A stretch of DNA of 64,000 bases from Myxococcus xanthus (GTDB lineage Bacteria > Myxococcota > Myxococcia > Myxococcales > Myxococcaceae). The DNA is taken from NCBI RefSeq assembly GCF_900106535.1, contig NZ_FNOH01000003.1, forward strand, positions 682,001-746,000. The letters run 5' to 3'. The position numbers and the translations under genes were made by a program. Shown here one piece after another: positions 20,295 through 48,570 of the stretch; within the stretch, counting starts at the first letter, position 1; each line of letters opens with the position of its first letter. Below the pieces are notes generated by a model. It ran no database searches. It saw nothing but the letters and a program-made list of their open reading frames with translations, and was not told where the DNA came from.

Positions 20295-23200
20295 TCATCT
20301 GGTGAGCGCGCTCTCCAGCTCCTGGTCGATGAGGGACGTCAGCTCCTGCTCCGACAGCCCTTGAATCTCCGCGGAGAGCGCGCCCTGCGCCTCCCGCGAT
20401 GCTTCCTGCTTCTTCTGAACCTCTGTCCCCAGCTCCAGCTCCTCGGCCAGATGCGCGACGAGTCCGTTCACGGTGGGGAAGTCGAAAATCAGCGTCGAAC
20501 GCAGGCTTCGCCCGAGACTGCTCGCGAGCCGGTTCTTGATTTCGATGGCCAGCAGCGAATCGACGCCCAGTTCGAACAGGCGCTCGTTTCCGGACAGCCG
20601 CTCCGACTCCGGCATGCCCAACGTCGCGGACACCTGCCCCGCGACGTGCTGACGCAGCAACTCCGCCTTGCGATTCGGCGGCGCCGCGTCCAACTGCGCG
20701 CGGAAGGCCGGCGCTTGCGCCCGCTGTGGCACGCTCCCCAGCAAGCCCTGGACGAGCGCCTGCCGCGCGAGCCCTGGCAACTGCTCCGCCAGCCGCGTCC
20801 AGTCCACGGGGAAGACGCCCCACTGGACTTGCGCGCTCCCGATGAGCCGCTCCAGGACGCTGAAGCCCTGCTGGACGGGAATGGCGCCGAAGCCCTGCGC
20901 CCCCGGCCGCGCGGAGGCTGCCCGCTCCAGCCGCGCCGCCATGCCCGTCTCAGCCCACGAGCCCCAGTTGAGCGTCAGCGCGGGCAGCCCCTCCGCGTGG
21001 CGCAGATGGACCAGCGCATCGAGGAAGGCATTCGCGGCGACGTAGTTCGACTGGCCCGGCGACCCGATGAGCGACGCGGCGGACGAGAAGCAGACGAAGA
21101 AGTCCAGCGCCATGCCCTGGCTGAGCGCATGGAGGTTCCACGCGCCCTGAAGCTTGGGGGCCAGCACCTCCCGGAACTGCTCGGACGTCTGGTTGGCGAG
21201 CGTTCCATCGCGGAGGACGCCCGCCGAATGAATGATGCCGCGCACGGGCGGGGCTTCGCGCAGGCTCGCGAAGAGGTCCGCCATGGCGTCGTGAGACGCG
21301 ATGTCCACCCGTGCGACCCGCACCTTCACGCCCTGGGACTCGAGCGCATCGAGCTGGGCGCGGGCTTCAGGCGACGGAGCACTGCGCCCCATCAGGACCA
21401 GATGCCGTGCGCCCTGTGCCGCCAACCAGTTGGCTGCACGCAGGCCGAGTCCCCCCAGGCCTCCCGCGACGAGATAGGTGGCCTCCCCGATGATGGACAC
21501 CTTCTTCGCCGCGACCGACCGTGAACGGGCCCGCTCGAGCCGGGGGGTGTAGAGACCGCCGCCACGAATGGCAGCGCCAGACTCCCCATCCGGCAACGCG
21601 AGCGCCCGCACGAAGGTGCCCAGGTCTTCGGACCGGGGCTCCGCGGGCAGGTCGATGCGGAGGCACCGCAGTTCGGGCAACTCCGTCGCCACGGCCTGTC
21701 CGAAGCCCCACAGCGGCGCCTGCGCGACGCGGGCGCCGTGCGTATCGGAGGGCAGGCTTTGCGTGCCCCGCGTCACCAGCACCAGCCGGGGCGACGCTCC
21801 CTGTCCATGCGCCAGGGCCTGCGTCAACCGCAGCGCGCCCAGGCATCCCAACTCCTGAGCCGCGTCGAGCCTGGCGCCCGCGTCACCCGCATGGCCTCCC
21901 TCATCGAGGCCCCAGAGGTACAACAGCCCCGTGGGAGGCTGATTCGCCCACGCCTTGACCAACCGCGCATGGTCCTCCGGGTTGGCGGGATTGATGCGGA
22001 AGCCCTCTGGCGTGCTGCTGAATGACTCCCCCTTGCGCACCAACGTGCAGCGCTCGCCACGCTGCGAAAGCACCTGCACCAGGTCCGAGGCGAAGTCGTC
22101 CTCGCTGGCGAAGACGGCCCAATGCTGATTCGCGGAGTGGGCTTCCTCCGTGACGGCACGCGACACCCAGTTGAGGCGGTAGAGCCAGTCCTGGAAGTCG
22201 TTTTCGAGCCCACGCAGCAACACGTCGCGTTCGGCCTTGCGCACCGAGAACCCCGACACGACAGCCACCACGGCGCCATCGTCGTCACACAGGGTCAGGT
22301 CCGTCGCGGAGAAGCCCTCCTGTCCCTCCCGGGGAGGCTGCGCCGCATACGTCCAGACCCGCTCCGGCAGCGGCCGGTACAGGTCCAGCGTCTGCAAGGC
22401 CACGGGGAGGTGCAGCGCGTCTTCCTCCGTGAGCCGCGACACCGCCGCCGCCGTGCGCAAGCAGCCGTCGAAGAGCGCCGGGTGGACGCGGTAGTGCCCG
22501 CTCCGGTCTTCCACCTGGCCCAACGACAGCGCGGCCCCAGTCCCCCGATGCAGCGACGTCAGCACCCGCAGGGACGGCCCATAGTCGAGCCCGTGGTGCG
22601 TGAAGACGGCGGAGAGTTCATCAATGGAAACAGGCGTCGCGCAGTCACGACCCCACGCCTCCCGATCCACCGATGGGGCCACGGTGCTCAGTGCCGACAC
22701 CCGGCACGTCACATGGGTGACCCAGGCCGCGCGCGATCCGCCGCCGCCCTCCTCCGAGCGCTCGTCCCCCCGGCTCACCACCTTGCACGCAAGGCCCGCC
22801 TCGCCCTGGTCCTCCAGCAACGTCTGGACGACCCGCGTCTGCTGTTCGGGGAGCACCAGCGGCTGAAGCAGGGAGATGTCCTCCAGCCGCAGCGACTCCG
22901 TTCCGAGCACCTGCGCCGCCGCCGAGGCCAGCATCTCCACGTAGGCCGCCGCGGGAACCACCGCCTTGCCGTACACCCGATGGTCCGCCACGAAAGGCAC
23001 GGTTCCCGCCGACAGCTCACTGGAGAAGACGGTCGTCCCCTCCTTCAAAGCGGCGGACTCCAGACGCGTCCCCAGCAACGGGTGAGTCGACGCACGGCGC
23101 GACGTGCGCGTCCACGGCGCGGGCACATCCAGCCAGTACCGCTGCCGCTCGAAGGGATAGGTCGGCAGGGCCTTGCGGGTCCGCGCATAGCCCGCATCGA

Positions 23201-25866: not shown

Positions 25867-28800
25867 CTAGTTCATCTTCGACAACTGCTCGGAGAGCAGG
25901 TGCGCGAGGTTCGCTTCAGCCAGCCCTTCCAGTGGGCTCTCGACCGGGGCGTCTGACTTCGACGTGACGCGCGCTTCCTCCGTGAACTCCAGAGGGATGA
26001 ACGCGTCCATGAGCTGCGTCGCGAGCTTCTCTGCCGTCGGGTAATTGAAGACGAGCGTGGCCGGCAGCGACACGCCGAGCCCACTCTGAAGCCGGTTCTT
26101 GAGCTGGAGCGCCGCCAGCGAGTCGATGCCCAGCTCGTGGAACCCACGCGCCGGGTCGATGGACTCGCTGGAGCCCACGCCTCGCATCCACGCCACTTGC
26201 TCGCGCACGTAGTCCATCAGCAACTGCCGACGCATCTCGATGGGCGCCGCCGTGAGTGTGTCCAGGAACGACGCGCGCTCCACCGTGCGCTCGCCCCCTG
26301 CCCGCTCGCGCAACTCCGCGGCGTAGGGCGTGGACCGGCCGCTGCCGAAGACGGCCCAGTCGATGGCGGCCACGCCGACCTGAGGAACGCGCGATGTGAG
26401 GAGCAGCTCCAGCGCGCGCAGGCCCTGCGCCTTCGGAATGACACCGAAGCCCGGCGTCCGAGCCTCCTCGCTCACCGACACCTGGGCGCCCGCGTCACCG
26501 GCCCAGATGCCCCAGTTGATGCTCAGGGCAGGCAGGCCCAGGGCACGGCGGTGGTGCGCCAGCGCATCCTCGAAGGCGTTCGCCGCGCAGTGATTCGACT
26601 GTCCCGCCGAGCCGACGAGCGATGCGACGGAGGAGAACATCACGAAGTAGTCCAGCGGCAGGCCCGCGGTCAGACGATGCAGGTTCCAGGCGCCGCGCAA
26701 CTTCGGCCGCAGCACGGTCTCGAAGCGCTCCCAGCGCTGCTGCCGCAGCACGCCGTCATCCAGCACACCGGCCGAGTGGAACACGCCGCCCAGAGGGGCC
26801 ATGTCCCGCGCCACCTCGTTCAGCAGCGCGGCCAGCGGCTCCGCATCCGCGATGTCGACTTGCCGGTACTCGACACGGACACCCTGCTGGCGCAGGTGCT
26901 CCAGACGTTCCGCCGTCTGCGGCCCCGGAGCGCCCCGGCCTGTCAGCACCAGGTTTCGTGCCCCCCGGCTCGCCAGCAACTCCGCCGTCAGCAAGCCCAG
27001 GCGTCCGAGCCCGCCCGCCACGAGATAGCTTCGGTCCGCCCGGAAGGCTTCGACTCGCTCCGCGGATGCTTCAACGAGCTTCCGTGACTCGACCCTCCGG
27101 AGTCGCGCGACGTAGCGGCCATCGCGATAGGCCACCTGGTCCTCCGCCACCTCCGCGCGGCGGCGAATCTCCTGCGCGAGCAACTCCACCTGGGCGCTCG
27201 GTTCGCCCTGGGCATCGAGGTCGACACACCGGCAATCCAACTCCGACGCCTCGATGGTCAGGGGCCGCGCCATGCCCCACAGCAACGACTGGGCGATCCC
27301 GGTCAACGGAACGCCCGGCTTCACGGGCTGCGCGCCACGCGACACCAGCCACACGGTGCCGGAGTACCCACGGTCCAGAAGGAACTGGAGCAGTCCCAGC
27401 GCGCCCCCCCCCGTCACCCGAGCCGCCTGCCCCAGCGCATCCGCATCCAGCGTCTCCGCTTCCTCGGTATGGGAGCCCCACATCAGGATGACGTCGGACA
27501 GTGCCGCCGGAAGCGGCAGTTCGCGCAAGGCCTCCACGAGCGCGTCGGGCGCGTCGGGGACCTCGAAGGTGGTCTCATCGATACGGTGCGACCGTGTGCC
27601 ACGGATGGCGACGAAGCAGGCGCGGCCATCGCGCTTCAGCACCTGTGCGAGCTGCTGCCCTGCGCCGTCGCGCTCAGAGAGAATCAGGCACGCGCCGCTC
27701 GCGGGCACCAGCGTCTCCGGACGAGTCCCCTCCAATGCGAGCGGCTCCCACCGCCGCTCGTAGAGCCACTCATCCAGCGAGGTGGAGAGCGCGGCACGCA
27801 GCGCCTCCTGGCTCGTGCGCTGAAGCTCCAGGCCACGCACCCAGGCGCGCAGCGCGCCATCTCTTCCGAAGATGCGGACATCCGCACGCAACCGCTTCCC
27901 AGCCTCATCCACCGGCCGCACCACGGCATGGCTCCACACGCCGTCTTCGATGCTGCCCAGCACGTGAAGCCGCTCGATGTGCACCGGCACGTACAGCTCG
28001 GTGCCATCCATGTCCGGATAGGCGCCGCCCACCACCTGTAGGCAGGCATCCATCAGGGCGGGATGCGCGAGGTAGCCACCGCCGCTCCCGAGGCCCGCCG
28101 GGCGCTCGATGCGCGCCAGGACCTGCTCGCCTTCCCGGCGCAGCTCGGTGATGCCCTGGAACTCCGGCCCGAAGTCGACGCCCGCGTTCCGTGCCCGCTG
28201 GTAGTAGTCCTCGACGGGAAGCGGGGTCTGCAGGTCCCTCAACACGCTGTCGAGGTCGTGCGCCTCGGTGGCCGTTGCATCATCACCGAGGACGGCGAGC
28301 GTGCCCGTCGCATGAAGGCTCCACGCGCGCTCCGAGCCCTCACCCGTCCGGCTGAAGATGCGCACAGCGGCCCTGCCCTCTCCGTCGCGGCGCACGGCGC
28401 ACTGCACCTTCCGCTCGGCATCCTTCGGGAAGGTCATCGCGTTGAGGATGGCCAGGTCGGTCAACTCCAGCGCGGTCGTGCCCAACAGCCGGGTCCCAGC
28501 GGCCAATGCCATCTCGACGTAGCCAGTCGCAGGCAGTGTGGGCGTTCCGAAGACGCGGTGCTGGCCCAGGAACGCCTGCGAGGCAGGCCCCAGCGTGGCC
28601 TCGAACAGCAGCTCACCGGCCTCCAGGACGGCCAGGGGCACGCGCTCGCCAATCAGCGGGTGCTCGGCGCGGGAAACGCTTCGCCCGTTGGGACGCTGGA
28701 GGCCCGCGCCCTCCTCCCAGTAGCGCTGACGCTGGAAGGCATAGGTGGGGACTTCCACCTTGCGCCGTGGGTAGCCGGCATCCACTGCCGCCCAGTCCAC

Positions 28801-31800
28801 CGCAACGCCGCGCACGTACAGCGCCGCCAGGCTCTCCAGCATCTGCCGCCAGCCCCCATCATCGGCGCGCAGACTCGGCAGCCAGGTGCCCGCGCCCTCG
28901 GGCACCGAGCGCGCCGCCATGCCGAGCAGGGTCGCCTTCGGGCCGACCTCGACGAAGACGCTCATGCCGTCGCGGTACAGCGCCTCCACGCCCCGGCCGA
29001 ACTGCACCGGGTTGCGAAGCTGGCTGCACCAGTAGTCCGGCGTGCAGAGCCCGTCCGTGATGAGCTCGCCAGTCATCCCGGAGACCATCGGAATCGACGG
29101 CGGCGAATAACGCAGCGACGCGGCGACGGCCCGGAACTCCGGGAGGATGGCCTCCATCATGACCGAGTGGGCCGCGCGCGGAATGTTCAGCCGCTTGACC
29201 TTGTAGCCCTTCGCGTCCAGCGCCTGGCCTATCTCCACGATCTCCGCGGGGATGCCGGAGATGACGACGTTGTCCGGCCCGTTGACGGCCGCGATGGAGC
29301 TGGCCCAACCGCCCTGGGCGAGGAACTGGCGCAGCTCCGGCTCCGCGGCGGAGACCGCGATGTTGCCGCCCTCCGGAAGCTGCTGAATCAACCGTCCGCG
29401 GTGAACGGCCAGCTTCAGGCCATCCTCCACGCTGAACACGCCCGCGATGCAGGCCGCCGCCAGCTCGCCCGTGCTGTGTCCCAGCAATACGTCCGGCTGG
29501 ATGCCCCACGACATCCACAGCTCGGCCAGCGCGTACTCCAACACGAAGACCACCGGCTGGGCGTAGTCGAGCTGGTCGATGGGCGATGGCGTCCCCGGCT
29601 CCGCGTAGAGGACGGAGATCAGCGAACGGTCCCAATACTCACGGAGCATCTGGTCGAACGAGTCGATGCGCCGGCGGAAGCCCGGATGCGTCTGGTACAG
29701 CTCGCGCGCGGCTCCGACGTACTGCGAGCCCTGACCGGAGAACAGGAACGCGACCTTCACCGCCTGCTTCGTGTCGGCCTCTCCCTGGACGACCCCCGGG
29801 TGCTCGTCCTTCCGCTCCGCCGCGCCCAGGACGGCGGCCACCTGCGCGGCGTCCTCCCCCACCACCGCGAGCCGGTGGTCGAAGGCGACACGCCCAGTGT
29901 TCGCGGAGAAGCACACGTCCGCGAGCGATGCGCCCGGTGCTTCGAGCGCCGCCCGGTAGCGGCCCGCGAGCTGCCGCAGCGCCTCCGGGCTCCGCGCCGA
30001 GAGCGCCAGGAGGTGCCGCGAGCGGTCCAACGGCTGCACGTCCGGCGCTGGCGTCGCCTGCGGCGGCGCCTCTTCGACGACCACATGGACGTTGGTGCCG
30101 CCGATGCCGAACGAACTGAGCCCCGCCCGCAGGACACCCTGCGTCGCGGTCCACGGCCGGGCCTTGTCCACCACGTAGAAGGGCGTCTTGTCGAGCTCCA
30201 GCCGCGGGTTCGGCGACTGATAGTGGAGCGTGGGCGGCAAGGTGCGGTGCTGGAGCGCGAGCACGACCTTGATGAGCCCAGCGATGCCCGCCGCGCTGTC
30301 GAGGTGGCCGATGTTGCCCTTCACCGAGCCCAGGCCGCACGACTGCGCCTGGACCTGTCCCCCAAACGCCTCCGTCAGCGCGGAGACCTCAATGGGGTCG
30401 CCAATGGCCGTTCCGGTGCCATGGGCTTCGACATAGGAGATGGTCCGCGGGTCCACCTTCGCGTGCTGATGCGCACGGCGCACCACGTCCGTCTGGCCCT
30501 CGACGCCGGGCGCCATGAAGCCCACCTTGCGGTGCCCGTCGTTGTTGATGGCGGAGCCCTTGATGACGGCGAGCACCCGGTCCCCATCCGCCAGCGCCTG
30601 GCTCAGGCGCTTGAGGACCACGATGCCAGCGCCGCTTCCCGGGATGGTTCCGTTGGCCCCGGCGTCGAAGGGACGGCAGTGGCCATCGCGCGAGAAGACG
30701 CTGCCTTCCTCGTACAAGTAGCCCACGCGGTGGGGCACCTTGATGGCCACGCCACCCGCGAGCGCCAGGTCGCAACTGCCCTCATTCAGCGCCGCGCACG
30801 CCGCGGACACCGCGACCAGGGACGTGGAGCACGCCGTCTGGACGTTGATGCTGGGCCCGCGCAGGTCGAGCTTGTAGGACACCTGCGTGGCCAGGAAGTC
30901 CTTGTCCTGGGCCATCAGGTCCTGGAAGAAGCCGATGGGGCGCGTCAGGTCCGGGTAGGGATAGCGATAGTGGCTGACGCTCTTCCCGGCATACACGCCG
31001 ACGAGCCCGTTGCGCCCCGACGGCGGATAGCCCGCGTGCTCCAGCGCCTCCCAGGCGCACTCCAGGAACACCCGCTGCTGCGGATCCAACGCGCGTGCCT
31101 CACGGGGCGTCAGCGAGAAGAACTCCGCGTCGAAGGCGTCAAAGTCATCCATCACCGCCGACGAGCGGACGTACCCGGGATTCCGGAACGCCTCCGGACT
31201 GACGCCCGCGGCCAGCAGCTCGTCATCGGTGAAGGTGCCCACCGACTCCACGCCCTGCATCAGGTTCTGCCAGAACTGCTCGGGCGTCGACGCCCCGGGG
31301 AAGCGGCAGCTCAAGCCGATGATGGCGATGTCCCGCGCATCCTGCGTCCGCGGCGTCTCCTCCCGCGGCGCGAGTGCCACCTCGGGCTTCTCCTCACCGC
31401 CCGCCGCCGCGAGCCTGGCCGCGAGCACCTTGACGGTGGGCCTGCCGAACAGGTCCGTGACGGGAACCGACAGCCCCAGCTTCTCCTTGAGCTCGAGGTG
31501 GAGCTTGATGAGGTGCACCGAGTTGGCGCCCAGCTCGAAGAAGTTCCGGTCCGGGTGGACCTCTGGAACCCCCAGCACCTCCGCCACGGCCTTCGCGATG
31601 GACTGCTGAAGCGCCTGGGCCTCACGGCCTGGACGGGCGGCGGCAGCGGGCTTGCTCTCCTCGCGCTGCGTGGGCCGCGCGACGTGGTCCGGATGCGGCA
31701 ACGCCTTGCGGTCCACCTTGGCGTTGCGGGTCAGCGGCAGCGCCTCCAGCACGACGTAGGTCGCTGGGACCAGGTGTTCGGGCAGCTTGCGGGACAGGAA

Positions 31801-34788
31801 CTCGCGGACGTGCCGGGTATCCACGCCGCGCTTCGTGTCCGAGGCGACGACATAGGCGACCAGGCGCTTTTCGTGGTGATCGCCGACCGCCCCGACCACC
31901 GCCGCGCTGATGCTCGGCTCCTGGAGCAACGCGGCCTCGATTTCACCCGGCTCGATGCGCTGTCCACGGATGGAGAGCTGGAAGTCGACGCGGCCGAGGA
32001 ACTCGATGGTGCCATCCGGCAGATACCGCCCGAGGTCGCCGGTGCGGTAGAGGCGCTCACCCGTCCGAGGGTGCACGGTGAACTTCTTCGAGCCCGCTCC
32101 CGCGCCCACGTAGCCCAGCGCCACGCCCACGCCCGCGCAGCACAGCTCGCCGGGCACCCAGATGGGACGCTCGTCCAGGTGCTCGTCCAGCACGTAGTAC
32201 TTCGTGTTCGAGATGGGCTTTCCGTACGGAATGCTGCGGCGCCGCTCGTCGGCTTCGACGACCGGATGGGAGATGTTCCACAGGGACGTCTCCGTCGGGC
32301 CGCCGACGCTCATCAGCTTCACGTCGCCGAACTTCGCCCGCAGCCGTGCGGGCATGGTGACGGGGAGCCAATCTCCTCCGAGCATCACCAGACGCAACGG
32401 GCAGGTCAGCCGGGCGTTGCTGCCTTCGAGATACGTCAGCAGCATCTCCATCATCGCCGGCACGGTGCTCCAGATGGAGACGCCATGACGGGACATCAGC
32501 TCGGCCCAGTGGGAGGGGTCCCTGCGCGAGGAGGCGTCCGGCATGACCAGGGCCGCGCCCGCGCTCAGGGTGCCGAAGACGTCGTAGACGGAGAAGTCGT
32601 GGTGGAGCGCGCTGAGCGCGATGACGCGGTCTTCCGGCCCGACGCCGAACTTCCGGTTCGTCCACTCCACGCCATTGACCATCCCGGCGTGGGTGAGCAT
32701 GGCCCCGTTGGGCTGGCCCGTGGAGCCGGAGGTGTAGAGGATGTGCGCCAGGTCCTCGGGCTTCTGCACGGGCGCCAGTGGCGCCTCGCTGTACTCACTG
32801 AAGGCGTCCGGCGTGACGACCAGCACCTGCACCCCTTCGGGCCAGGACTCCTGGGCGAACTTCGGCTGCGTCACCGCCAGCTCGGCCCCGCCGTTCCGCA
32901 TCATGAAGACGCGCCGCTCGTGCGGCAGCCCCGCGTCGATGGGCAGGTACGCCGCTCCCGAGCTGAGAACCCCCAGCGCGGCCACGACCTGCTCCCACCC
33001 CTTCTCCATCACAATCGCGACGATGCGGTTGGGCGCGGCGCCACGCTCGCGCAGCGCATGTCCGAGCCGGCTGGAGCGCCGGGCGAGCTCGCCATAGCTC
33101 AGCCTGACGCTCGACGAGGCCAGCGCCAGGGCGTCCGGGCGTGCCGCGGCGTGGCGGTAGAAGCCCGTGTGGAGCAGCTCCCCGCTCCGCGGGCGCGCCG
33201 TGTCGTTGACGCGGGCCAGCAGTTCCACCTGCCGGACCGGACGGGTGTCCAGCCCCTGCTGGTCCCACGCGGCGTCGTCCTCCGCCAGGCGCCGTAGCAG
33301 CGCGCAGAAGCTGGAGAACATGTCTTCAATCATGCCGGACGGGAACAGCTCCTCCGCCACGTCCCAGTTCAGGAAGACGCCGCCCCGCTGGTAGACAATC
33401 TGCAGGTCGATCCACACCTGGGGCGTCTGCGTCAGCGCCTCGATGAGCTCGCCGAACTCCTCCGCCAGGAAGTCGACCCAGTGCGAGTCCTTGCTCTTGG
33501 AGTGAGACGCGAAGCTCGTCATCACCACCGGCATGATGGCGCCCGCGATACGCCCCTGGGCCCTGAACAGCTCCCGCAGCAGCTCGACGCCGCTGACCTC
33601 ACGGTGCTCCAGCGCCAGGAAGAGCTGGTCCCGGATGGCAAGGGCCCGCTCCGTGAACGTCCGCTCCGGCCGGTGGTCCACCTCAATCAGCGTGAAGCTG
33701 GCGAAGGTGCCGACAATCTCGTTGACCTGGGGATGAAGGGGCAGCCGGTTGAAGTGCGGGACGTTGAGCGTGAAGCGAGGGCTGCGGCTCCAGCGCGCCA
33801 TGACCTCCGCGTACGCCGCCAGCAGCAGCTCCGGCTCCGTCAGCTTGCGCGCGCGGGCTCGCTGCTTGAGCGGCTGCCAGATATCCGGCCCCAGCCGTTC
33901 GAACACGCGCCCGAAACGAGGACGCCGGAGCGAACCCGGGTCCTTGTCCAGCGGGAGGTCCGGCGCGGGCGGGAGGTTCGGAAGGCGGGAGCGCCAGTAC
34001 TCGAGCGAACGCGCATGACGAGCACCGCGCGCATGCTGCACCGCCAGCGCGTAGTCCCGGAAGGACAGGTCCAGTTGGGGAAGCGCGGGCGCCCCGCCCA
34101 GGTGTTTGTAGAGGTGGACGAGCTCCCGGTAGAGAATCTGGAAGCTGTAACCATCGATGAAGGTTCCATCGATGCTCATGAAGAGGCGCGAGCGGCCCCC
34201 GTCGAGCTGGCACACGCGGAGCTCGAACAACGGCCACTGGTCGAGCGCCAGCACCTGCTGCGACAGCCGCTCGCGGATGGCCTGGAAGCGAGCCTCCGTC
34301 TCCTCCTGTTCGCGCCCGCGCAGGTCCTCCACGGGCAGGACGTAGCGCGGCACGTCGGGGAGGATGCGCTGCTGGAAGCCCGGGAGCGCCACCACCCGAA
34401 GCATCTCGTGGCGGGCGATGAGCAGGTTCCAGGCGTCCTCGAAGCGGGCCAGGTCGAGCGCGTGGCAGTCAATCTCGTTGTACGCGTGCATCGCCGCGTT
34501 CATCTCGAGCTCGGCCTGCCGGCCCACGCTGTAGGCCTGCTGGATCTCCGTCATCGGGAACGGCGCGTGCCGCTCCTCGGGCCGGGGCGTGATTTGCGGC
34601 AGCGTCTCCGCCTGGGGCATGCGCTGCTCCGACAACAGGGTCAGCAGCGCGGCCTTGTTCGCCACGAGCTGCTCGCGCAGCGCTCCTGGAATCTCGCCCG
34701 TGGGCGAATCGACCGCCAGGCGGTCCCCCTCCACCGACAGCTTGATGCCGTGCCCAGCGAGGGCCTGAAGAAGCTCATTCAATGTCAT
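25867..34788 (-). CDS. Hybrid NRPS-PKS: Cy-A-PCP-KS-AT-DH-KR-ACP
   Basis: The 2973-residue protein starts with a TubC-type docking domain (1-55). A heterocyclisation domain follows, with FPMTEIQQAYSVGR near 76 and the DxxxxDxxS motif near 209 (DGTFIDGYS). The A domain has YTSGSTGQPNG near 686; my reading of its pocket, D-F-Y-S-M-G-V-L-W, resembles Cy-linked A domains and should mean Cys, Ser or Thr, but I cannot decide which. PCP has LGANSV near 1089. KS has TACSTS near 1319, HGTGTAIGD and NIGHLD. AT has GHSTGE near 1772 with RAAHS at the selectivity site (neither malonyl HAFH nor methylmalonyl YASH). DH has HRVFGTPTLP near 2077. KR has AGGLGRLG near 2590, but the catalytic Tyr is His (SNHCAANA, near 2731). 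ACP has LGIDSL near 2888. No oxidase domain is present. The start overlaps the previous stop (ATGA). Confidence 0.95.
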   Translation of the reverse strand: MTLNELLQALAGHGIKLSVEGDRLAVDSPTGEIPGALREQLVANKAALLTLLSEQRMPQAETLPQITPRPEERHAPFPMTEIQQAYSVGRQAELEMNAAMHAYNEIDCHALDLARFEDAWNLLIARHEMLRVVALPGFQQRILPDVPRYVLPVEDLRGREQEETEARFQAIRERLSQQVLALDQWPLFELRVCQLDGGRSRLFMSIDGTFIDGYSFQILYRELVHLYKHLGGAPALPQLDLSFRDYALAVQHARGARHARSLEYWRSRLPNLPPAPDLPLDKDPGSLRRPRFGRVFERLGPDIWQPLKQRARARKLTEPELLLAAYAEVMARWSRSPRFTLNVPHFNRLPLHPQVNEIVGTFASFTLIEVDHRPERTFTERALAIRDQLFLALEHREVSGVELLRELFRAQGRIAGAIMPVVMTSFASHSKSKDSHWVDFLAEEFGELIEALTQTPQVWIDLQIVYQRGGVFLNWDVAEELFPSGMIEDMFSSFCALLRRLAEDDAAWDQQGLDTRPVRQVELLARVNDTARPRSGELLHTGFYRHAAARPDALALASSSVRLSYGELARRSSRLGHALRERGAAPNRIVAIVMEKGWEQVVAALGVLSSGAAYLPIDAGLPHERRVFMMRNGGAELAVTQPKFAQESWPEGVQVLVVTPDAFSEYSEAPLAPVQKPEDLAHILYTSGSTGQPNGAMLTHAGMVNGVEWTNRKFGVGPEDRVIALSALHHDFSVYDVFGTLSAGAALVMPDASSRRDPSHWAELMSRHGVSIWSTVPAMMEMLLTYLEGSNARLTCPLRLVMLGGDWLPVTMPARLRAKFGDVKLMSVGGPTETSLWNISHPVVEADERRRSIPYGKPISNTKYYVLDEHLDERPIWVPGELCCAGVGVALGYVGAGAGSKKFTVHPRTGERLYRTGDLGRYLPDGTIEFLGRVDFQLSIRGQRIEPGEIEAALLQEPSISAAVVGAVGDHHEKRLVAYVVASDTKRGVDTRHVREFLSRKLPEHLVPATYVVLEALPLTRNAKVDRKALPHPDHVARPTQREESKPAAAARPGREAQALQQSIAKAVAEVLGVPEVHPDRNFFELGANSVHLIKLHLELKEKLGLSVPVTDLFGRPTVKVLAARLAAAGGEEKPEVALAPREETPRTQDARDIAIIGLSCRFPGASTPEQFWQNLMQGVESVGTFTDDELLAAGVSPEAFRNPGYVRSSAVMDDFDAFDAEFFSLTPREARALDPQQRVFLECAWEALEHAGYPPSGRNGLVGVYAGKSVSHYRYPYPDLTRPIGFFQDLMAQDKDFLATQVSYKLDLRGPSINVQTACSTSLVAVSAACAALNEGSCDLALAGGVAIKVPHRVGYLYEEGSVFSRDGHCRPFDAGANGTIPGSGAGIVVLKRLSQALADGDRVLAVIKGSAINNDGHRKVGFMAPGVEGQTDVVRRAHQHAKVDPRTISYVEAHGTGTAIGDPIEVSALTEAFGGQVQAQSCGLGSVKGNIGHLDSAAGIAGLIKVVLALQHRTLPPTLHYQSPNPRLELDKTPFYVVDKARPWTATQGVLRAGLSSFGIGGTNVHVVVEEAPPQATPAPDVQPLDRSRHLLALSARSPEALRQLAGRYRAALEAPGASLADVCFSANTGRVAFDHRLAVVGEDAAQVAAVLGAAERKDEHPGVVQGEADTKQAVKVAFLFSGQGSQYVGAARELYQTHPGFRRRIDSFDQMLREYWDRSLISVLYAEPGTPSPIDQLDYAQPVVFVLEYALAELWMSWGIQPDVLLGHSTGELAAACIAGVFSVEDGLKLAVHRGRLIQQLPEGGNIAVSAAEPELRQFLAQGGWASSIAAVNGPDNVVISGIPAEIVEIGQALDAKGYKVKRLNIPRAAHSVMMEAILPEFRAVAASLRYSPPSIPMVSGMTGELITDGLCTPDYWCSQLRNPVQFGRGVEALYRDGMSVFVEVGPKATLLGMAARSVPEGAGTWLPSLRADDGGWRQMLESLAALYVRGVAVDWAAVDAGYPRRKVEVPTYAFQRQRYWEEGAGLQRPNGRSVSRAEHPLIGERVPLAVLEAGELLFEATLGPASQAFLGQHRVFGTPTLPATGYVEMALAAGTRLLGTTALELTDLAILNAMTFPKDAERKVQCAVRRDGEGRAAVRIFSRTGEGSERAWSLHATGTLAVLGDDATATEAHDLDSVLRDLQTPLPVEDYYQRARNAGVDFGPEFQGITELRREGEQVLARIERPAGLGSGGGYLAHPALMDACLQVVGGAYPDMDGTELYVPVHIERLHVLGSIEDGVWSHAVVRPVDEAGKRLRADVRIFGRDGALRAWVRGLELQRTSQEALRAALSTSLDEWLYERRWEPLALEGTRPETLVPASGACLILSERDGAGQQLAQVLKRDGRACFVAIRGTRSHRIDETTFEVPDAPDALVEALRELPLPAALSDVILMWGSHTEEAETLDADALGQAARVTGGGALGLLQFLLDRGYSGTVWLVSRGAQPVKPGVPLTGIAQSLLWGMARPLTIEASELDCRCVDLDAQGEPSAQVELLAQEIRRRAEVAEDQVAYRDGRYVARLRRVESRKLVEASAERVEAFRADRSYLVAGGLGRLGLLTAELLASRGARNLVLTGRGAPGPQTAERLEHLRQQGVRVEYRQVDIADAEPLAALLNEVARDMAPLGGVFHSAGVLDDGVLRQQRWERFETVLRPKLRGAWNLHRLTAGLPLDYFVMFSSVASLVGSAGQSNHCAANAFEDALAHHRRALGLPALSINWGIWAGDAGAQVSVSEEARTPGFGVIPKAQGLRALELLLTSRVPQVGVAAIDWAVFGSGRSTPYAAELRERAGGERTVERASFLDTLTAAPIEMRRQLLMDYVREQVAWMRGVGSSESIDPARGFHELGIDSLAALQLKNRLQSGLGVSLPATLVFNYPTAEKLATQLMDAFIPLEFTEEARVTSKSDAPVESPLEGLAEANLAHLLSEQLSKMN

Positions 34789-37700: not shown

Positions 37701-39050
37701 CATCCCAAACGAGCTCACGGCGACGCGATGAGGGCCGTCCTTCTCCGCCAGGGCCGTGCGCGCTCGAGGCACCGCGAGCCCTGAGCCCTCCCACGCGAAC
37801 TCCGGGGTCGGGTGCTCGAAGTTGATGGAGGGAGGCACCTCGCCCGCCTGGAGCACCAGGACGGCCTTGATGAGTCCCGCGATGCCGGCCGCGGCCTCCG
37901 TGTGACCGATGTTCGGCTTGACGGAGCCAATCCACAGCGGGCGCTCCGAAGTCCGCGCTGCGCCGTAGACGCGCGACACGCCGTCCAGCTCGATGGGATC
38001 TCCCAGCCGCGTTCCCGTCCCGTGCGCTTCCAGGTAGTCCACCTGCCCGGGCTCGATGCCCGCGCGCTGCAACACGCGCCGGTACAGCGCTTCCTGTGCC
38101 CCGACGTTCGGCACCGTGAGACCACCGCTGGCGCCGTCGTGGTTCATGCCCGTGCCACGCAAGGTCGCGAGGATGCGGTCACCATCCCGAACGGCGTCCC
38201 GCAGCCGCTTCAGGACGACCACGCCACAGCCCTCCCCCTGCACCATGCCGTCCGCGTCCCGGTCGAACGTGCGGCAATGGCCGCTGGGGGAGAGGGCTCC
38301 CGCCTTGGACAGGAACACGCTGAGTTGCGGCGCCAGGATGAGCTTCACGCCTCCGGCGATGGCGAGCGTCGACTCTTCTGTCCGCAGGCTCTGACACGCC
38401 AGGTGCACAGCGGACAAAGAGGACGAGCACGCGGTGTCCACCGCCATGCTCGGCCCTTCGAGCCCGAGGAGGTACGACAGCCGGCCCGCCACATAGCTGG
38501 CGTCCACACCCGTGGAGTAGTGGGCGCTCACCTTCTCCAGCCCGCCCCCCGTGACGAACGCGTAGTCCTTCGCGTGGACGCCCGCGAAGACACCGGTCCG
38601 CGTCCCCTGGAGCTGGTGTGGGGGAATGCCAGCGTCCTCCAGGGCCTCCCAGCTCACCTCCAGGAAGAAGCGCTGCTGCGGGTCCATGCCCTCGGCTTCA
38701 CGCCGGGAGATGTGGAAGAACTCCGCGTCGAACCGGTCCACCTCGTCCACGAAGCCGGCGCGGCGCATGGCCAGCTTCCCGGGCCTGGAGGGGTCCGGGT
38801 CATAGAGCCCCTGGAGCGCCTGCCGGTCGCTGGGAATCTCCGTCAGCGCCTCCCGTGCCCCCCACAGCAGGTCACGGAACTTCGCGGGGCTGGTGGCGCC
38901 CCCCGGAAAGCGGCAGGCCATGCCGATGATGGCAATCGGTTCCCGCTCACCATTCGAGGCCGTGGCCAGCTTCTTCTGCAGCTTCTCGATGGTCAGCAAC
39001 GCCTGCTGGAGTGGCGACAACTCCGCCATGAATCCGTCCTTGCGGTTCAT
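34785..39050 (-). CDS. Type I PKS module KS-AT(inactive)-KR-ACP
   Basis: The 1421-residue protein has an N-terminal coiled coil (SPLQQALLTIEKLQKKL); an intact KS (DTACSSS near 207, HGTGTRLGD, NIGHTE); an AT-like region that has lost the active-site motif, reading GFGVGA near 646 where GHSxGE belongs, and is shortened in the middle; a KR with TGGLGGIG near 1056 and Tyr in ASYAAANA near 1196; and an ACP with LGFDSI near 1358. There is no DH. If the AT is dead, malonate must come from another AT in trans, or the module does not elongate. The C-terminus (SERDDSKRVLL) is a short tail suitable for the TubC-like docking domain of the downstream NRPS. ATG at 39050 overlaps the upstream TGA by one base; GTG at 39053 is an alternative. 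Confidence 0.93.
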   Translation of the reverse strand: MNRKDGFMAELSPLQQALLTIEKLQKKLATASNGEREPIAIIGMACRFPGGATSPAKFRDLLWGAREALTEIPSDRQALQGLYDPDPSRPGKLAMRRAGFVDEVDRFDAEFFHISRREAEGMDPQQRFFLEVSWEALEDAGIPPHQLQGTRTGVFAGVHAKDYAFVTGGGLEKVSAHYSTGVDASYVAGRLSYLLGLEGPSMAVDTACSSSLSAVHLACQSLRTEESTLAIAGGVKLILAPQLSVFLSKAGALSPSGHCRTFDRDADGMVQGEGCGVVVLKRLRDAVRDGDRILATLRGTGMNHDGASGGLTVPNVGAQEALYRRVLQRAGIEPGQVDYLEAHGTGTRLGDPIELDGVSRVYGAARTSERPLWIGSVKPNIGHTEAAAGIAGLIKAVLVLQAGEVPPSINFEHPTPEFAWEGSGLAVPRARTALAEKDGPHRVAVSSFGMSGVNAHALVEAYAEAAHAAVDAGPYVLPLSARSEPALRTLAASWLQYVSEAGPGARLQDACFMAGAGRSHHAHRAVLVARTPEALRAALHAVTEGRDAPGVNRGSGEGEPVFLFGGTEPEASRLMRELLGRDVFRAHAEKVDAVFRQVAGGSVIEQVAGAQAGEGHPVGTLLVLQLALAELWRACGLTPAAVSGFGVGALSAGVVAGALSVEDAVRLALQLTPAQPVRPQPVKYPFFSTVDGAWVEAGATVPGAYWERQRAAVIDPASSVANLCARNASAFIQVSCEASVGAALEATARSRGSKAVILRASRPGDDAWTGVLGVIAGGYSSGGSIRFEGLFTGARKTVVPTYPWQRERYWWDGAVAPAPSSVQPVRDASPRDLFCELTWHARTVGQGPVDAEGRWLIVSTQPAASESLRQSLSTAGGTVRVAIVGSEQASVLREWLSESPAPRGVIYLSGSEHPESLEGLHTSVQREVHAAASLVQTLARHSAPTLPRLFLVTQGSQAADGAAGPTAIAGAPLWGLGRVVAYEHPELACKRIDIEPAAFGALVTELARKVSASADDDEVVLRGEQRLVPSLTQTQTIPEGTGAFRPRQDRTYLITGGLGGIGLRLASWLVERGARHLALCGRKGETDEARQALAPLRAAGARVETFRVDVSRPESVAEMLAAVRRGGAPLGGIFHSAGVLADSSLLQWEPQGFETVMGPKVDGAWNLHALATDTTLEHFVLFSSTASLIGSPGQASYAAANAFLDALAHFRRARGLPAISLNWGSWGEVGMAVADARRGDRLAERGMSPMSVDEALAAMALVLAENRVTRGIARFDVTRWTASHPSIVASSLFRTESVTDAVPDVMEAPRKLREVLLALEGSARRGVLEARLKEMISEVGKIPTTKLSSTDSFDALGFDSIMALELRDMVLGELDVSMPLKSFVDESSIEQVTAELLGKLAVASVLGAASSERDDSKRVLL

Positions 39051-41260
39051 CACGCGACCTCGAGGCTGAGTTCGGCCAACGTCCGGGCGATCTGCTCGCG
39101 CGCTTCGTCCTCGGACAGCCCGGCAATGCGTTCCATCAGGCCCTGCTCCTCCTGCTCGGGCGTACTCACCTCGCCCGGGTCCGACGGCAGGCGGCCACGC
39201 CGCGCCTCCAGCAGGGACAGCAGCCGCTTCGCCAGCGACTCCAGCCGGGGCAGCTCGAAGAAGAGCGTCGTCGACAGCGGGAGCTCGAGCGCCCGCGAGA
39301 TGCGCTCCTTCAACAACGTGGCCCCAATGGAGTTCAGGCCCAGTTCGAAGAAGGTCCGCCCCTGCACATCGAGCGTCGCGGGCTCGACCTCCAGCACGTC
39401 CGCGAGGTGCCCCCGCAGGAACGCCCGCATCTGGGCCTCCCCATGCACGTCGGGAACGCGGGAAGCATCCCCGGCGGCCACCGCGGCGGCCTGAAGCAGG
39501 GTGGCGGCGTCCGGCCGCGCGTCCTTGGGTGAGCGGCAGACTTCATCGGGTGAAAGCCACTCGGGCCACAGGCGCTGACGCTGGAAGGGGTAGACCGGCA
39601 GGCTCACGCAGCGCCCTGCACGCACCGGGAACACCTCGGGCGGCACCGTCCCATCCGCGACGAAGACACGCCCGGCCTCCACCTGCTCCAGCGGCATGCC
39701 CTCCTGAACCAGGAGCGCCGTCCCACTCGACGTCGCGAGCGAATCCAGGAGCGCCACGAGCCCAGCCCGGTCGCCCGCAATCACCACGGCACGGTGCCGG
39801 TGGTGCTGACGCTTGAGCGCCGCCGTGAAGCAGACGTCCTCCAGCGTCGCCACCGAGTCCGGCGTCGTGGCGAGGAAGTCCCGAAGCTGGAGCGCCCGCT
39901 GACGGAGCGCGTCCTGAGAGAGCGCCGAGAGCGCCAGGAAATGGACCGGCGCGGGCGTCCGCTCCAGCACCGCAGCCGGAGCTGCCTCCAGGACCACGAA
40001 GCCGTTGGCACCGCCCAGGGACGTGGAGACGATGCCCGCTCGCAGCGGCACGCCAGGCTCCCGCGCGGCCCAGGGCTCCAGCTCCGTCTGGATGCTCAGC
40101 CCGAGCGCGTCGAACGAAACCAGCGGGTTGGGCGCATCCACGTGAATCGTCGGCGCCAACGTCCGGTGGTGCAGCGACAGGCACACCTTGATGAACTGCG
40201 CGATGCCCGCCGCGGCGCCCAGGTAACCCACGTTGTTGCTGATGGCGCCGAGCCTGCAGGGCACCGGCCGCTGCGTCCCGAGCGCCTCCCCGATGGCCTC
40301 CGCTTCGGCCGCGTCGCCCTTGAGGAACGACGAGCCGTGCATCTCGATGTAGTCGATGCTCGCCGGAGCCACCCCGCCCTGCTCACACGCCTGCCGGATG
40401 ACGTCCGCCTGCGCCGAGGCGCTGGGCGCCATGATCCACTCGTTCCGGCCGTTGTGATTGACGGCGCTGCCCCGAATCACCGCGTACACGCGGTCACCGG
40501 GCTCAACCTTGGACAGGCGCTTGAGGACGACGACGCCAGCGCCCTCCCCGCGCACGTAGCCGTCCGCCTGCGCATCCAGGGTCCGGCACTGCCCCCGCTC
40601 GGAGAACACGCCGGCCTGGGACAGCATGATGCTGCTGTCCGGAGACAGCATCAGCTCGACGCCCCCGGCGAGGGCCATCTCCACCTCGCCCAGCGTCAAG
40701 CTGCGGCACGCCTCATGGAGGGCCACCGTCGAGGAGGCACACCCCACGCTCGACACGGTGCTGGGTCCCCGGAAATCAAAGGCGTAGGAGAGCCGGTTGG
40801 CCGCGAAGGACGCCGTCGTTCCCAGGACGGAATAGCCATCCAGCGAGGACCAGTCCCTCGCCAGCATCCGCTGGAAGTCGCTGAAGTTGACGCCCATGAA
40901 GACGCCCGTGCGGCTCCCTCGCACGGCGTCGAAGGGCAGGCCCGCATCCTCCAGCGCATGCCATGCACACTCGAAGAGGAGACGGTGCTGCGGGTCCATC
41001 TGCCGCAGCTCCCGCTTCGTCAGCCGGAACGCCGCGGGGTCGGCCAGCTCCACGCCTTCAATCAGTCCGGCCTTGCGGTTGCGAATCGTCCCAGGGCGAT
41101 CAGGTGCCGCGTCGAAGAGCGAAGACAAAGGCCAGCGCCCGGCCGGGATGTCCCCCGTCGCATCAATCCCATCACATAGCATTTGCCAGAGCGTACGCGG
41201 GCAGTCCGACATGGGCAGACGCAGGCCCAGTCCAATCACAGCAATGGGTTCACACAACAT
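39050..41260 (-). CDS. KS-ACP didomain protein with degenerate ketosynthase, no AT
   Basis: The protein has about 736 residues. The KS keeps its Cys (VGCASS near 174) and the first His (EMHGSS near 309), but the second His region, normally K-x-N-[IL]-G-H, reads SNNVGYLG near 344, so the Lys is Ser and the His is Tyr. The usual flanking TG-x-LGD is also changed. Such a KS should lack decarboxylative condensation but may still transacylate. A short linker (PVYPFQRQRLW) leads straight to an ACP (LGLNSI near 643, Asn instead of Asp before Ser); AT, DH and KR are absent. The C-terminal helix (LSEDEAREQIARTL) resembles PKS docking helices. ATG at 41260 is preferred; a TTG at 41335 gives a longer form but has no ribosome site. 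It probably holds or hands over a starter unit. Confidence 0.9.
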   Translation of the reverse strand: MLCEPIAVIGLGLRLPMSDCPRTLWQMLCDGIDATGDIPAGRWPLSSLFDAAPDRPGTIRNRKAGLIEGVELADPAAFRLTKRELRQMDPQHRLLFECAWHALEDAGLPFDAVRGSRTGVFMGVNFSDFQRMLARDWSSLDGYSVLGTTASFAANRLSYAFDFRGPSTVSSVGCASSTVALHEACRSLTLGEVEMALAGGVELMLSPDSSIMLSQAGVFSERGQCRTLDAQADGYVRGEGAGVVVLKRLSKVEPGDRVYAVIRGSAVNHNGRNEWIMAPSASAQADVIRQACEQGGVAPASIDYIEMHGSSFLKGDAAEAEAIGEALGTQRPVPCRLGAISNNVGYLGAAAGIAQFIKVCLSLHHRTLAPTIHVDAPNPLVSFDALGLSIQTELEPWAAREPGVPLRAGIVSTSLGGANGFVVLEAAPAAVLERTPAPVHFLALSALSQDALRQRALQLRDFLATTPDSVATLEDVCFTAALKRQHHRHRAVVIAGDRAGLVALLDSLATSSGTALLVQEGMPLEQVEAGRVFVADGTVPPEVFPVRAGRCVSLPVYPFQRQRLWPEWLSPDEVCRSPKDARPDAATLLQAAAVAAGDASRVPDVHGEAQMRAFLRGHLADVLEVEPATLDVQGRTFFELGLNSIGATLLKERISRALELPLSTTLFFELPRLESLAKRLLSLLEARRGRLPSDPGEVSTPEQEEQGLMERIAGLSEDEAREQIARTLAELSLEVA

Positions 41261-41338
41261 CAAGGCACGGCTCCGCTGGCGACTCGCAAGCCGCTCAGAC
41301 TCATCACCTGTTTGAACTTCATTCTCAACCAACAAGAA

Positions 41339-43882: not shown

Positions 43883-43934
43883 GCCGTGTCCCGCCTCTTG
43901 CAGCGTCAACGCTCGGGTTGCTCGCGGAAGCCGT

Positions 43935-45320: not shown

Positions 45321-45461
45321 GCCCGAAGCAAACTGCTCACGAGCAAACCAGTCAATCACCGACCAGGTTGGCCCATACCCTGGTCTGAGATGAGTGCTCA
45401 GCCAGTTCGACCAGGTCAGCCGCGTGTAGAATTTTACCGCGGCCATAGGCTGGAAAGCACT

Positions 45462-45479: not shown

Positions 45480-45496
45480 GGGAATGAGTGACACCG

Positions 45497-45919: not shown

Positions 45920-47059
45920 ATGGACTTCAGTTGGACTCACGAGCAGGTGGAGCTCTATGACCGTGCCCTCGCCTTCGCGCGAGCGCAGTTGCCCGAGGCC
46001 GCAAAGCCCAGCAAGGAAGCCCTGCCACGCGATTTGTGGCAACGCTGTGGTGAGTTCGGCTTCTTGGGGCTGCCCGTGCCCGCGGCGCATGGCGGACTGG
46101 GGCTGGACACACTGACCACTGCACGGGTGATGGAGGCGCTGGGGCGTGGCTGCGTGGACACCGGACTGGTGTTCTCCGTGGGAGCTCACCTCTTCGCCTG
46201 CGTGATGCCCATCCTGGAGAGCGGGGATGACGCGCAGAAGTCCCGGTACCTGCCCCGCCTGTGCTCGGGGGAATGGGTGGGCGCCAACGCCATCTCCGAA
46301 CCCGAAGCGGGCTCGGATGTGTTTGCCCTGAAGACGCGCGCGGTGCGGGACGGCGACAGCTACGTGCTCGATGGTGGCAAGAGCTACGTCACCAATGGCC
46401 CCTCCGCGGACGTCTTCCTCGTCTACGCCGCCACGCAGCCGGCCCATGGGTACATGGGCCTGAGCGCCTTCCTCGTCGAGAAGGACACGCCGGGACTGTC
46501 CGTCGGGCGCGCCTTCGAGAAGATGGGGCTGTCCACGTCGCCCATCGCCCCCATCTACCTGGAGGGGTGCCGTGTCCCGGAGTCCGCGCGGCTGGGTGCG
46601 GAGGGCCAGGGCGCGGCGATGTTCAAGCGCTCCATGCAGTGGGAGCGCGCGTGCCTCTTCGCCGCCTACGTGGGCGTGATGGAGCGGGTGCTCGAACAGA
46701 CGGCGGACTTCGCCCGGACCCGCAAGCAGTTCAAGAAGGCCCTGGGGAAGAACCAGGCCATCTCCCACAAGCTGGCGGACATGAAGCAGCGGCTGGAGGC
46801 ATCCCGGCTGCTGCTGTACCAGGCCTGCTGGAAGATGGACCGAGGCCAGGACGCCGTCATGGAAGTGTCCCTGGCCAAGCTGGCCATCAGCGAGGCCGCC
46901 ATCCAGAGCGGCCTGGACGCCATCCAGATTCACGGCGGCATGGGCTACGTGGCCGAAACGGGCATCGAGCGCGTGCTGCGTGACGCCATTCCCAGCGCCA
47001 TCTTCTCCGGCACCTCCGAAATCCAACGCGACATCATCGCCAACCAGCTCGGCCTATGA
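45920..47059 (+). CDS. Acyl-CoA dehydrogenase-fold prolyl-carrier dehydrogenase (PltE-like)
   Basis: The 379-residue flavoprotein starts at ATG 45920 behind AGGA; the upstream in-frame extension from 45776 has no family character. It shows acyl-CoA dehydrogenase signatures (SEPEAGSD, WERACLFAAYVGVMER, FARTRKQFKKALGKNQ, IHGGMGY) and, from memory, matches prolyl-S-PCP dehydrogenases such as PltE more closely than fatty-acid enzymes, notably MDF at the start, the WERACLFAA block and FSGTSEIQ at the end. Those enzymes use FAD to oxidise prolyl-S-carrier to pyrrolyl-2-carboxyl-S-carrier. The next gene, overlapping by ATGA, is the matching prolyl-AMP ligase. The PltE-like role is established for the family and inferred here from sequence and context. 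Confidence 0.9.
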   Translation: MDFSWTHEQVELYDRALAFARAQLPEAAKPSKEALPRDLWQRCGEFGFLGLPVPAAHGGLGLDTLTTARVMEALGRGCVDTGLVFSVGAHLFACVMPILESGDDAQKSRYLPRLCSGEWVGANAISEPEAGSDVFALKTRAVRDGDSYVLDGGKSYVTNGPSADVFLVYAATQPAHGYMGLSAFLVEKDTPGLSVGRAFEKMGLSTSPIAPIYLEGCRVPESARLGAEGQGAAMFKRSMQWERACLFAAYVGVMERVLEQTADFARTRKQFKKALGKNQAISHKLADMKQRLEASRLLLYQACWKMDRGQDAVMEVSLAKLAISEAAIQSGLDAIQIHGGMGYVAETGIERVLRDAIPSAIFSGTSEIQRDIIANQLGL

Positions 47060-48570
47060 CACTCGACCAAATCGTCATCCGTGCAGCGGCGAAGGCTCCC
47101 GAGTCCATCGCCATCAAGGGTCCCGACGGGACCCTCACCTACGGCCAGTTGGACGCGCTCGCCAACCGCATCGCCCGCGCGCTCCAGGAGCTGGGCGTGA
47201 AGCAGGGAGACCGCGTGGGGCTGTGGACGGAAAAGTCCGTGCGCGCCGTCGCCGCGATGCAGGGCATTGCCCGGCTGGGCGCCGCCTACGTCCCCTTGGA
47301 CCCGCTGAACCCCGCGACGCGAACGCGGCTCATCCTCGACGACTGCGGCATTGACGTGATGGTGACCACCACCACGCGCGCGTCCGAGCTCCACAACGCC
47401 GGCGTGAGCCGGCTGCGCTACCTGCTGGTGGACGACAAGGGGCCCGAGATCTGCTGGAACCGGCTGTCCGGTTTTTCATCTGAGCCGCTGCCGCCGCACG
47501 GCGCGGGCGACCACGACCTGGCGTACATCCTCTACACGTCAGGCTCCACGGGAACGCCCAAGGGCGTGTGCATCAGCCAGCGGAACGCGATGGCCTTCAT
47601 CGAGTGGTGCCATGCGCTCCTGGGCACCACACCGGAGGACCGCTTCAGCAACCACGCGCCGTTCTTCTTCGACCTCTCGGTGCTGGACCTGTATGCGGCC
47701 TTCATGGGCGGCGCGTCCGTCACGCTCATCCCGGAGGCGCTGGCCTTCGCGCCGGAGAAGCTGGTGGAGCTGGTCCTCCGCGAGCGGTTCACCTGTTGGT
47801 ACTCGGTGCCGTCGGCGCTGATGCTGATGATGCAGGAAGGCGGCCTGCTGAAGCATGGGGCGCTGCCCTTCCGCGCCGTGCTCTTCGCCGGCGAGCCGTT
47901 CCCCATCCGGCACCTGCGCCCGCTTCGTGAGCACCTGCCACAGGCGCGGTTCTTCAACCTCTATGGACCCACGGAGACCAACGTCTGCACCTTCCATGAG
48001 GTGACGGACATTTCGCCCCACCGCACCGAGCCGGTGCCCATTGGCCGAGCGAGCTGTGGCAACCGCGTGTGGTTGGCCCGGCCGCCGCCGGGCTCAGAGG
48101 AAGCGCGGGAGGAAGGCGACGGCGTGGGCGAGCTGATGGTGGAAGGCCCCACGGTGATGCTGGGCTACTGGGGCCAGCCCCGCCATGGGAGCGGGCCGTA
48201 TGCCACGGGGGACCGCTGCCGCGAGGTGCCGGACGGCACGTTCGAATACCTGGGCCGCCGCGACAACATGCTGAAGGTGCGCGGGCGCCGCATCGAAGCG
48301 GGCGAAATCGAAGCGGCGCTGCTCACGCACCCGGACATCCGCGAGGCAGGCGTGATTGCCACCGGCTCCGGCCTGGAAGCGCGGCTGGTGGCCTTCGTGG
48401 TCAGCGGCGCCAGCAAGCCCCCTTCCCTGCTCAAGGTGAAGAAGCACTGCGCGGAGCGGTTGCCTCGCTACATGATTGTCGACGAGGTCCGCGTGCTGCC
48501 CGAGCTGCCCCGGACTCCCAACGGCAAGCTCAACCGGCGCGCGCTCAGGGAACTGACGCAGGCGCCTTGA
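47056..48570 (+). CDS. L-prolyl-AMP ligase (PltF-like stand-alone adenylation enzyme)
   Basis: The 504-residue stand-alone adenylation enzyme has YTSGSTGTPKG near residue 160, HFDLSV-type core (FFFDLSVLDLY), LYGPTETNVC, TGDRC, GRRDNMLKVRGRRIE and the catalytic Lys in PNGKLNRRAL near the end. The pocket residues read D-L-L-Y-L-A-L-V-C, the same set I recall for PltF-type ligases that activate proline for pyrrole formation. It would adenylate L-proline and load a free carrier protein, after which the upstream dehydrogenase oxidises it. The start overlaps the dehydrogenase stop (ATGA). The only free carrier gene visible lies 45 kb away at 1891, on the other side of the synthase operon. A strong hairpin follows 10 bases after the stop. 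Confidence 0.92.
   Translation: MTLDQIVIRAAAKAPESIAIKGPDGTLTYGQLDALANRIARALQELGVKQGDRVGLWTEKSVRAVAAMQGIARLGAAYVPLDPLNPATRTRLILDDCGIDVMVTTTTRASELHNAGVSRLRYLLVDDKGPEICWNRLSGFSSEPLPPHGAGDHDLAYILYTSGSTGTPKGVCISQRNAMAFIEWCHALLGTTPEDRFSNHAPFFFDLSVLDLYAAFMGGASVTLIPEALAFAPEKLVELVLRERFTCWYSVPSALMLMMQEGGLLKHGALPFRAVLFAGEPFPIRHLRPLREHLPQARFFNLYGPTETNVCTFHEVTDISPHRTEPVPIGRASCGNRVWLARPPPGSEEAREEGDGVGELMVEGPTVMLGYWGQPRHGSGPYATGDRCREVPDGTFEYLGRRDNMLKVRGRRIEAGEIEAALLTHPDIREAGVIATGSGLEARLVAFVVSGASKPPSLLKVKKHCAERLPRYMIVDEVRVLPELPRTPNGKLNRRALRELTQAP

Follow-up and report, generated by a model that had tools for sequence, protein, structure and literature searches.

The question raised by this locus is what a ketosynthase (KS) with a tyrosine in place of its second catalytic histidine does ahead of module 1 of a modular assembly line, and how a pyrrolyl starter that is made on a free-standing carrier enters that line. 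DKxanthene is the yellow pigment of Myxococcus, and the cluster containing the KS-ACP gene has been known since 2006-2008. The analysis covers a stretch of 64,000 nucleotides, referred to as the window, and the positions of its features are collected in Table 1.

Table 1. Features of the KS-ACP protein and of the surrounding cluster, in window positions.
Feature	Position	Strand	Remarks
KS-ACP protein	39050..41260	minus	736 aa from ATG 41260; open frame extends to 41335
Remodelled ketosynthase domain (Cys-His-Tyr)	39971..41260	minus	PF00109/PF02801; 214/430 positions invariant across 23 orthologs
Active-site Cys codon (SVGCASS)	40739..40741	minus	Cys199 in 761-aa frame, 174 from ATG; invariant, 23 orthologs
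First catalytic His codon (HGSS)	40337..40339	minus	His333 in 761-aa frame, 308 from ATG; invariant, 23 orthologs
SNNVGY	40223..40240	minus	Ser at Lys position; Tyr codon TAC 40223-40225 at second His
Post-AT linker of KS-ACP (SLPVYPFQRQRLWPE)	39536..39619	minus	remains after probable AT deletion
ACP of KS-ACP	39212..39430	minus	PF00550, E 2e-11; phosphopantetheine Ser codon 39329-39331, Ser invariant
C-terminal docking-like tail of KS-ACP (AGLSEDEAREQIARTLAEL)	39053..39148	minus	class from known PKS docking motifs
Module 1: KS (CHH, KPNIGH)-degenerate AT (GFGVG)-KR-ACP, N-terminal docking helix	34785..39053	minus	
Cy-A-T-KS-AT-DH-KR-ACP (oxazoline-forming and polyene module)	25867..34788	minus	cyclization motif DGTFIDGYS
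KS-AT-DH-KR-ACP (polyene)	20295..25856	minus	domain search
KS-AT-DH-KR-ACP (polyene)	14798..20287	minus	domain search
C-A-T-TE terminal module	10494..14801	minus	domain search
KS-AT-DH-KR-ACP (polyene)	2156..7741	minus	domain search
Free-standing carrier protein, putative prolyl/pyrrolyl PCP	1891..2151	plus	PF00550 genome search, sequence, co-occurrence
Type II thioesterase adjoining PCP	1106..1894	plus	PF00975
Prolyl-PCP dehydrogenase, PigA equivalog	45920..47059	plus	NF053553, 510 bits, cut-off 500 (NCBIfam)
Free-standing adenylation enzyme, putative prolyl-AMP ligase	47056..48570	plus	PF00501, TIGR01733 over cut-off, specificity motifs, co-occurrence

DKxanthene is composed of pyrrole, oxazoline, polyene, and asparagine moieties (PMC4902038). 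The gene set of the window matches this structure with a pyrrole pathway, a cyclization domain, polyene modules, and a terminal C-A-T-TE module, so that the locus fits a DKxanthene cluster. The DKxanthene synthase of M. xanthus DK1622 (MXAN_4271-4312) likewise combines a pyrrole pathway, an oxazoline-forming module, polyene modules, and a terminal NRPS module. The specificity positions of the putative prolyl ligase, read from its motifs, are D, L, L, S, L, A, L, V, and C and presumably resemble those of the prolyl ligases of pyrrole pathways. Strong matches to the free PCP are found in 22 of the 92 genomes of the family and strong matches to the ligase likewise number 22; PCP, ligase, and KS-ACP co-occur in the same genomes (22 for PCP and ligase). 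A home-made carrier profile gave no significant free match and so suggested that a free PCP is missing; the PP-binding search, together with the sequence itself, showed otherwise.

The pigment cluster also contains genes for an ArsA-type ATPase and a patatin-like phospholipase (8233-10494, minus strand). Two homologous clusters, L198 (5525-8392 and 16031-18937) and L199 (5565-8471 and 15992-19066), encode extra, apparently split PKS proteins with an M4-like N-terminal and an M5-like C-terminal part that are absent from the window. Another member of the family, L197 (G148:C131:56001-76000), harbors a prolyl ligase (54-56%), a PigA-like dehydrogenase (69%), two PCPs, and no Cys-His-Tyr KS, and is, judged by these genes, a different pyrrole pathway. 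A record titled Comamonas sp. KCTC 72670 (L059) carries a Myxococcus-type cluster and is likely misnamed.

In the frame 39050-41335 of the minus strand, a domain profile search identifies PF00109 (5e-79), PF02801 (2e-32), a KS-AT linker, and a PP-binding domain. The same search gives no Acyl_transf_1 match in this frame, which agrees with the initial annotation that no AT is present; only a scar is left ahead of the post-AT linker. The ATG at 41258-41260 is the likely start of the 736-aa protein because a GGAG precedes it and because a stop lies within a few codons 5′ of the equivalent Met in several orthologs. The motif SLPvyPFQRQRLWPE of the post-AT linker is kept in the ortholog alignment, and the stretch preceding it holds no invariant residue across 23 orthologs. 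Since the linker is retained, the AT was probably deleted, as opposed to never having been there. The ACP indeed reads LNS instead of LDS, as annotated, but this is not a special feature: LNS recurs in the free PCP, ANS is found in the M2 PCP, and LSS occurs in some KS-ACP orthologs, while the phosphopantetheine Ser is invariant. LNS was therefore dropped as a special trait of this ACP.

In an alignment with the KSs of the same genome, SVGCASS stands where ordinary KSs have DTACSSS, and GAISNNVGY takes the position of GSVKxNIGH, which replaces Lys with Ser and the second His with Tyr (Tyr371 in the 761-aa frame, 346 from the ATG; codon 40223-40225). The earlier reading that SNNVGY has lost both Lys and His thus stands; the residue at the Lys position is Ser and not Asn. 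Neither the second His nor the Lys is missing from any other KS read from this genome; the combination of Cys-His-His with the Lys of KxNxGH that marks an elongating KS is missing from KS-ACP in 23/23 orthologs. The Cys and the first His, which had been described as kept, are indeed invariant in the 23 orthologs, and so are the surrounding SVGCASS, HG, and KGDAAEA. The elongation machinery is altered beyond the Lys and His that had been noted before. HGS[SA]F replaces HGTGT and a gating loop STSLGG[AS]N replaces SSFG(F/M)xGxNAH, with the unbracketed positions of both invariant in 23 orthologs, and the equally invariant loop NHNGRNEW replaces NxDGxxxG. Studies of FabF associate the GFGG loop and a neighbouring loop with gating and the site for malonyl-ACP (PMC7138838), and both of these loops are altered in KS-ACP.

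Within the genus, 17 of 27 genomes encode an ortholog of KS-ACP; across Myxococcota, the count is 23 of 195, with all 23 in four genera of one family (Myxococcaceae). These counts come from whole-genome searches that replaced a contig scan for homologous loci with two narrow peptide patterns (7 loci). SNN[VL]GY is present in each of the 23 orthologs, whose identities span about 60-98%. A DNA pattern for N-x-G-Y..AAAG, which is blind to KSs with a different sequence after the Tyr, has one site in each of the 23 ortholog genomes and none in the 172 other Myxococcota genomes; a control search with the reversed pattern gave 0 matches. The KS of KS-ACP has a pairwise dN/dS of 0.12-0.16 (five comparisons), next to 0.09-0.14 for the intact KS, 0.09-0.12 for the KR, and 0.28-0.52 for the degenerate AT of module 1. 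The KS is under purifying selection, on par with the intact module-1 KS. A fully inactive domain would be expected to drift like the module-1 AT, which this KS does not. In distant orthologs, the identity amounts to 70-75% for the KS, 43-58% for the ACP, and 50-56% for the linker.

The comparison with KS0 and KSQ clades that had been proposed for this KS was carried out with a small reference set, in a maximum-likelihood tree of the KS-ACP family, 33 other KSs of the genome, the DKxanthene modules, and four KSs from the PDB. The family sits on a long branch next to KSs of cis-AT type, a placement that is weakly supported (UFBoot 67). With the few references used, a forced grouping with the KS0-like domain of the genome is rejected (AU p 0.019-0.028), whereas a grouping with the KSQ of PikAI and GfsA, which the maximum-likelihood tree itself does not recover, is not rejected (AU p 0.245), nor is a grouping with KSQ and a neighbouring KS of the genome (AU p 0.54). 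KS-ACP shares the retained catalytic Cys (SVGCASS) with KS0. The first His, which is lost in KS0, is kept (HGSS/HGSA), whereas the L148 KS of the same genome carries Q at this position; membership in KS0 is rejected by this residue as well as by the tree with its few references. KSQ does not fit by residue, as Cys and not Gln is present. The tree and the constraint tests indicate that H-to-Y is a derived trait that is fixed in the KS-ACP family, which by residue is neither KS0 nor KSQ, and the KS may have a KSQ-like ancestry.

The surroundings of the gene bear on the position of the protein in the line. The KS-ACP protein has no N-terminal docking helix or element, its C-terminus (GLSEDEAREQIARTLAEL) resembles the tails of other PKS proteins in the cluster, and module 1 opens with a helix of the corresponding type (SPLQQALLTIEKLQKKL). 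With classes assigned from known PKS motifs, tail and helix are predicted to be a matching docking pair. In every locus, the KS-ACP gene lies immediately before the module-1 (KS-AT(dead)-KR-ACP) gene. In those of the more distant loci that were examined, it is transcribed divergently from the prolyl dehydrogenase and ligase genes. In the closer loci only, genes for an FAD monooxygenase and a phosphodiesterase (41339-45494, minus strand) separate KS-ACP from the divergent prolyl genes; they are absent at that position in the distant loci L054, L109, and L114. The FAD monooxygenase (856 aa, 41339-43909, minus strand) has a C-terminal half of ∼380 residues without a significant Pfam or PDB match, and full-length relatives were found in 9 of the 61 genomes searched, all within the closer group of the genus.

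All module-1 orthologs have a degenerate AT, in which GHSxG is gone and the catalytic Ser is substituted, and this domain evolves faster than its neighbours. With no functional AT in either of the two leading proteins, module 1 must receive malonyl in trans. In the module-1 ortholog of L052 (10637-15217), the active-site Tyr of the KR is replaced by Asp (GQGNDAAAN), which suggests that the KR is lost there.

The initial annotation had considered a starter-relay didomain that heads the line. This reading is the best supported, given the missing N-terminal docking element, the C-terminal tail, the gene position before module 1, and the co-occurrence of ligase and PCP. The gatekeeping role named alongside it is speculative. 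It is probable, though well short of certain, that KS-ACP is a non-condensing transacylase didomain and the first protein of the DKxanthene line, which relays the pyrrolyl group from the free PCP via its own ACP to module 1. As their families imply, the free ligase and the PigA-type dehydrogenase would build pyrrole-2-carboxyl on the free-standing PCP. The pyrrolyl group would then be accepted by the KS Cys, assisted by the remaining His, and handed to the protein's own ACP. Subsequently, the C-terminal docking tail would offer the pyrrolyl-ACP to module 1 through the N-terminal docking helix there. The intact KS of module 1 would carry out the first condensation with a malonyl unit, which would have to come in trans because the module-1 AT is dead. 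Both carriers of a CloN2-type shuttle, the free PCP and an acceptor ACP, are present together with the pyrrole-making pair. The relay is not chemically required, since the module-1 KS could in principle draw the pyrrolyl group directly from the PCP.

That the KS is unable to decarboxylate malonyl and able to transacylate is a reasonable inference from its residues and from the analogy with the hangtaimycin KS0 and CloN2; condensation is presumably lost. In CalA3, mutants of the corresponding Lys (Lys367) and of both His lost the amidation (C-N bond) reaction (PMC10006239). By this analogy, the loss of the active-site Lys and second His could also weaken acyl transfer in KS-ACP. KAS III-type enzymes condense without this Lys-His pair, so the loss of condensation in KS-ACP is not certain.

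Other readings give the KS a different role or none. It is unlikely, yet to be taken seriously, that the KS has no catalytic activity and acts as a scaffold for dimerisation and ACP presentation, with the ACP charged by another enzyme. Inactive PKS domains that are kept for structural reasons are documented by the AT, DH, and KR of CalA3 (PMC10006239), and module 1 also retains its dead AT; a scaffold, however, does not need the Cys, the first His, and their shells, which are invariant here, while the neighbouring dead AT drifts. It is distinctly unlikely that the KS still condenses, with the Tyr standing in for the second His in enolate stabilisation and a first extension on its own ACP. The Tyr is fixed and strongly constrained, and with the Cys-His-Asn of KAS III there are condensing enzymes with another third residue as a parallel, but in KS-ACP the Lys is also gone, the gating loop is altered, no AT serves its ACP, and module 1 with the full KS and KR required for the first unit comes next.

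Proline might instead be loaded and oxidized on the ACP of KS-ACP, with the free PCP serving otherwise. The ligase and dehydrogenase genes adjoin KS-ACP in distant species, whereas the PCP is tens of kilobases off; against this, free PCP and ligase share the same 22 genomes, as in other pyrrole pathways, and conservation is lower in the ACP than in the KS. This role is very unlikely. A KSQ-type loading domain that decarboxylates malonyl to an acetyl starter is hardly credible: the KSQ grouping is not rejected by the AU test, and the top PDB matches of the KS include the KSQ of PikAI and GfsA, but a Cys is present and not Gln, the Lys and second His that KSQ keeps (KTNIGH) are lost, there is no AT, and the cluster has a pyrrole starter pathway. 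The chance that KS-ACP is a relic or a sequencing artefact is practically negligible, with nothing beyond the unusual residues in its favour and the same residues in 23 intact orthologs at a dN/dS of about 0.12 against it. An error at the Tyr codon, which had been named beforehand as refuting the relay, is not the case, as 23/23 orthologs carry the motif, and together with the DNA pattern and the dN/dS they rule out a sequencing error or pseudogene.

The relay through KS-ACP would place it in a known kind of enzyme, the non-condensing transacylase KS, with a loss of residues that differs from KS0 and KSQ. It offers a natural and fixed split of the KS half-reactions, in which acyl transfer is kept and condensation presumably lost. 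Along the proposed pyrrolyl route, KS-ACP would act as an adapter from a free-standing (type II) carrier to a docked (type I) line, and such a ready-made adapter from free-standing starter carriers to modular lines could serve engineering. A gap in DKxanthene biosynthesis is also made testable, namely the entry of the pyrrolyl group into the line and the source of malonyl for module 1.

In clorobiocin biosynthesis, CloN2 mediates the passage of pyrrolyl between two carriers, with CloN5 as donor and CloN1 as acceptor (PMC11218499). The job proposed for KS-ACP is alike, as pyrrole-2-carboxyl would be moved from the PCP where it is made to a second carrier. CloN2 is a stand-alone KAS III-like enzyme, whereas KS-ACP is a type I PKS KS fused to the acceptor ACP. 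The KSQ loading didomains of PikAI and GfsA share the KS fold and the position at the head of the line. They have an AT, decarboxylate, and carry Gln for Cys while the Lys and His are kept; in KS-ACP, the Cys is kept and the Lys and second His are lost. KS3 of the hangtaimycin synthase HtmA1 (Cys-Asn-His) is a transacylase, and its C155A variant abolishes product formation (PMC8456789). Like this KS0 of a trans-AT PKS, KS-ACP retains the Cys, has lost elongation residues, and has an ACP after the KS. The two differ in that HtmA1 KS3 loses the first His, whereas KS-ACP keeps it and loses the second His and the Lys, and in that KS0 belongs to trans-AT systems, whereas KS-ACP is of cis-AT type by sequence and stands at the head of its line. 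We see even chances that the KS represents a distinct subclass, marked by Cys-His-Tyr, a Ser in place of the Lys, and an altered gate, that is joined to an ACP and specialised as an adapter carrying an aryl starter off a free-standing carrier and into a modular assembly line. It would then be the mirror image of KS0, with the second His lost instead of the first.
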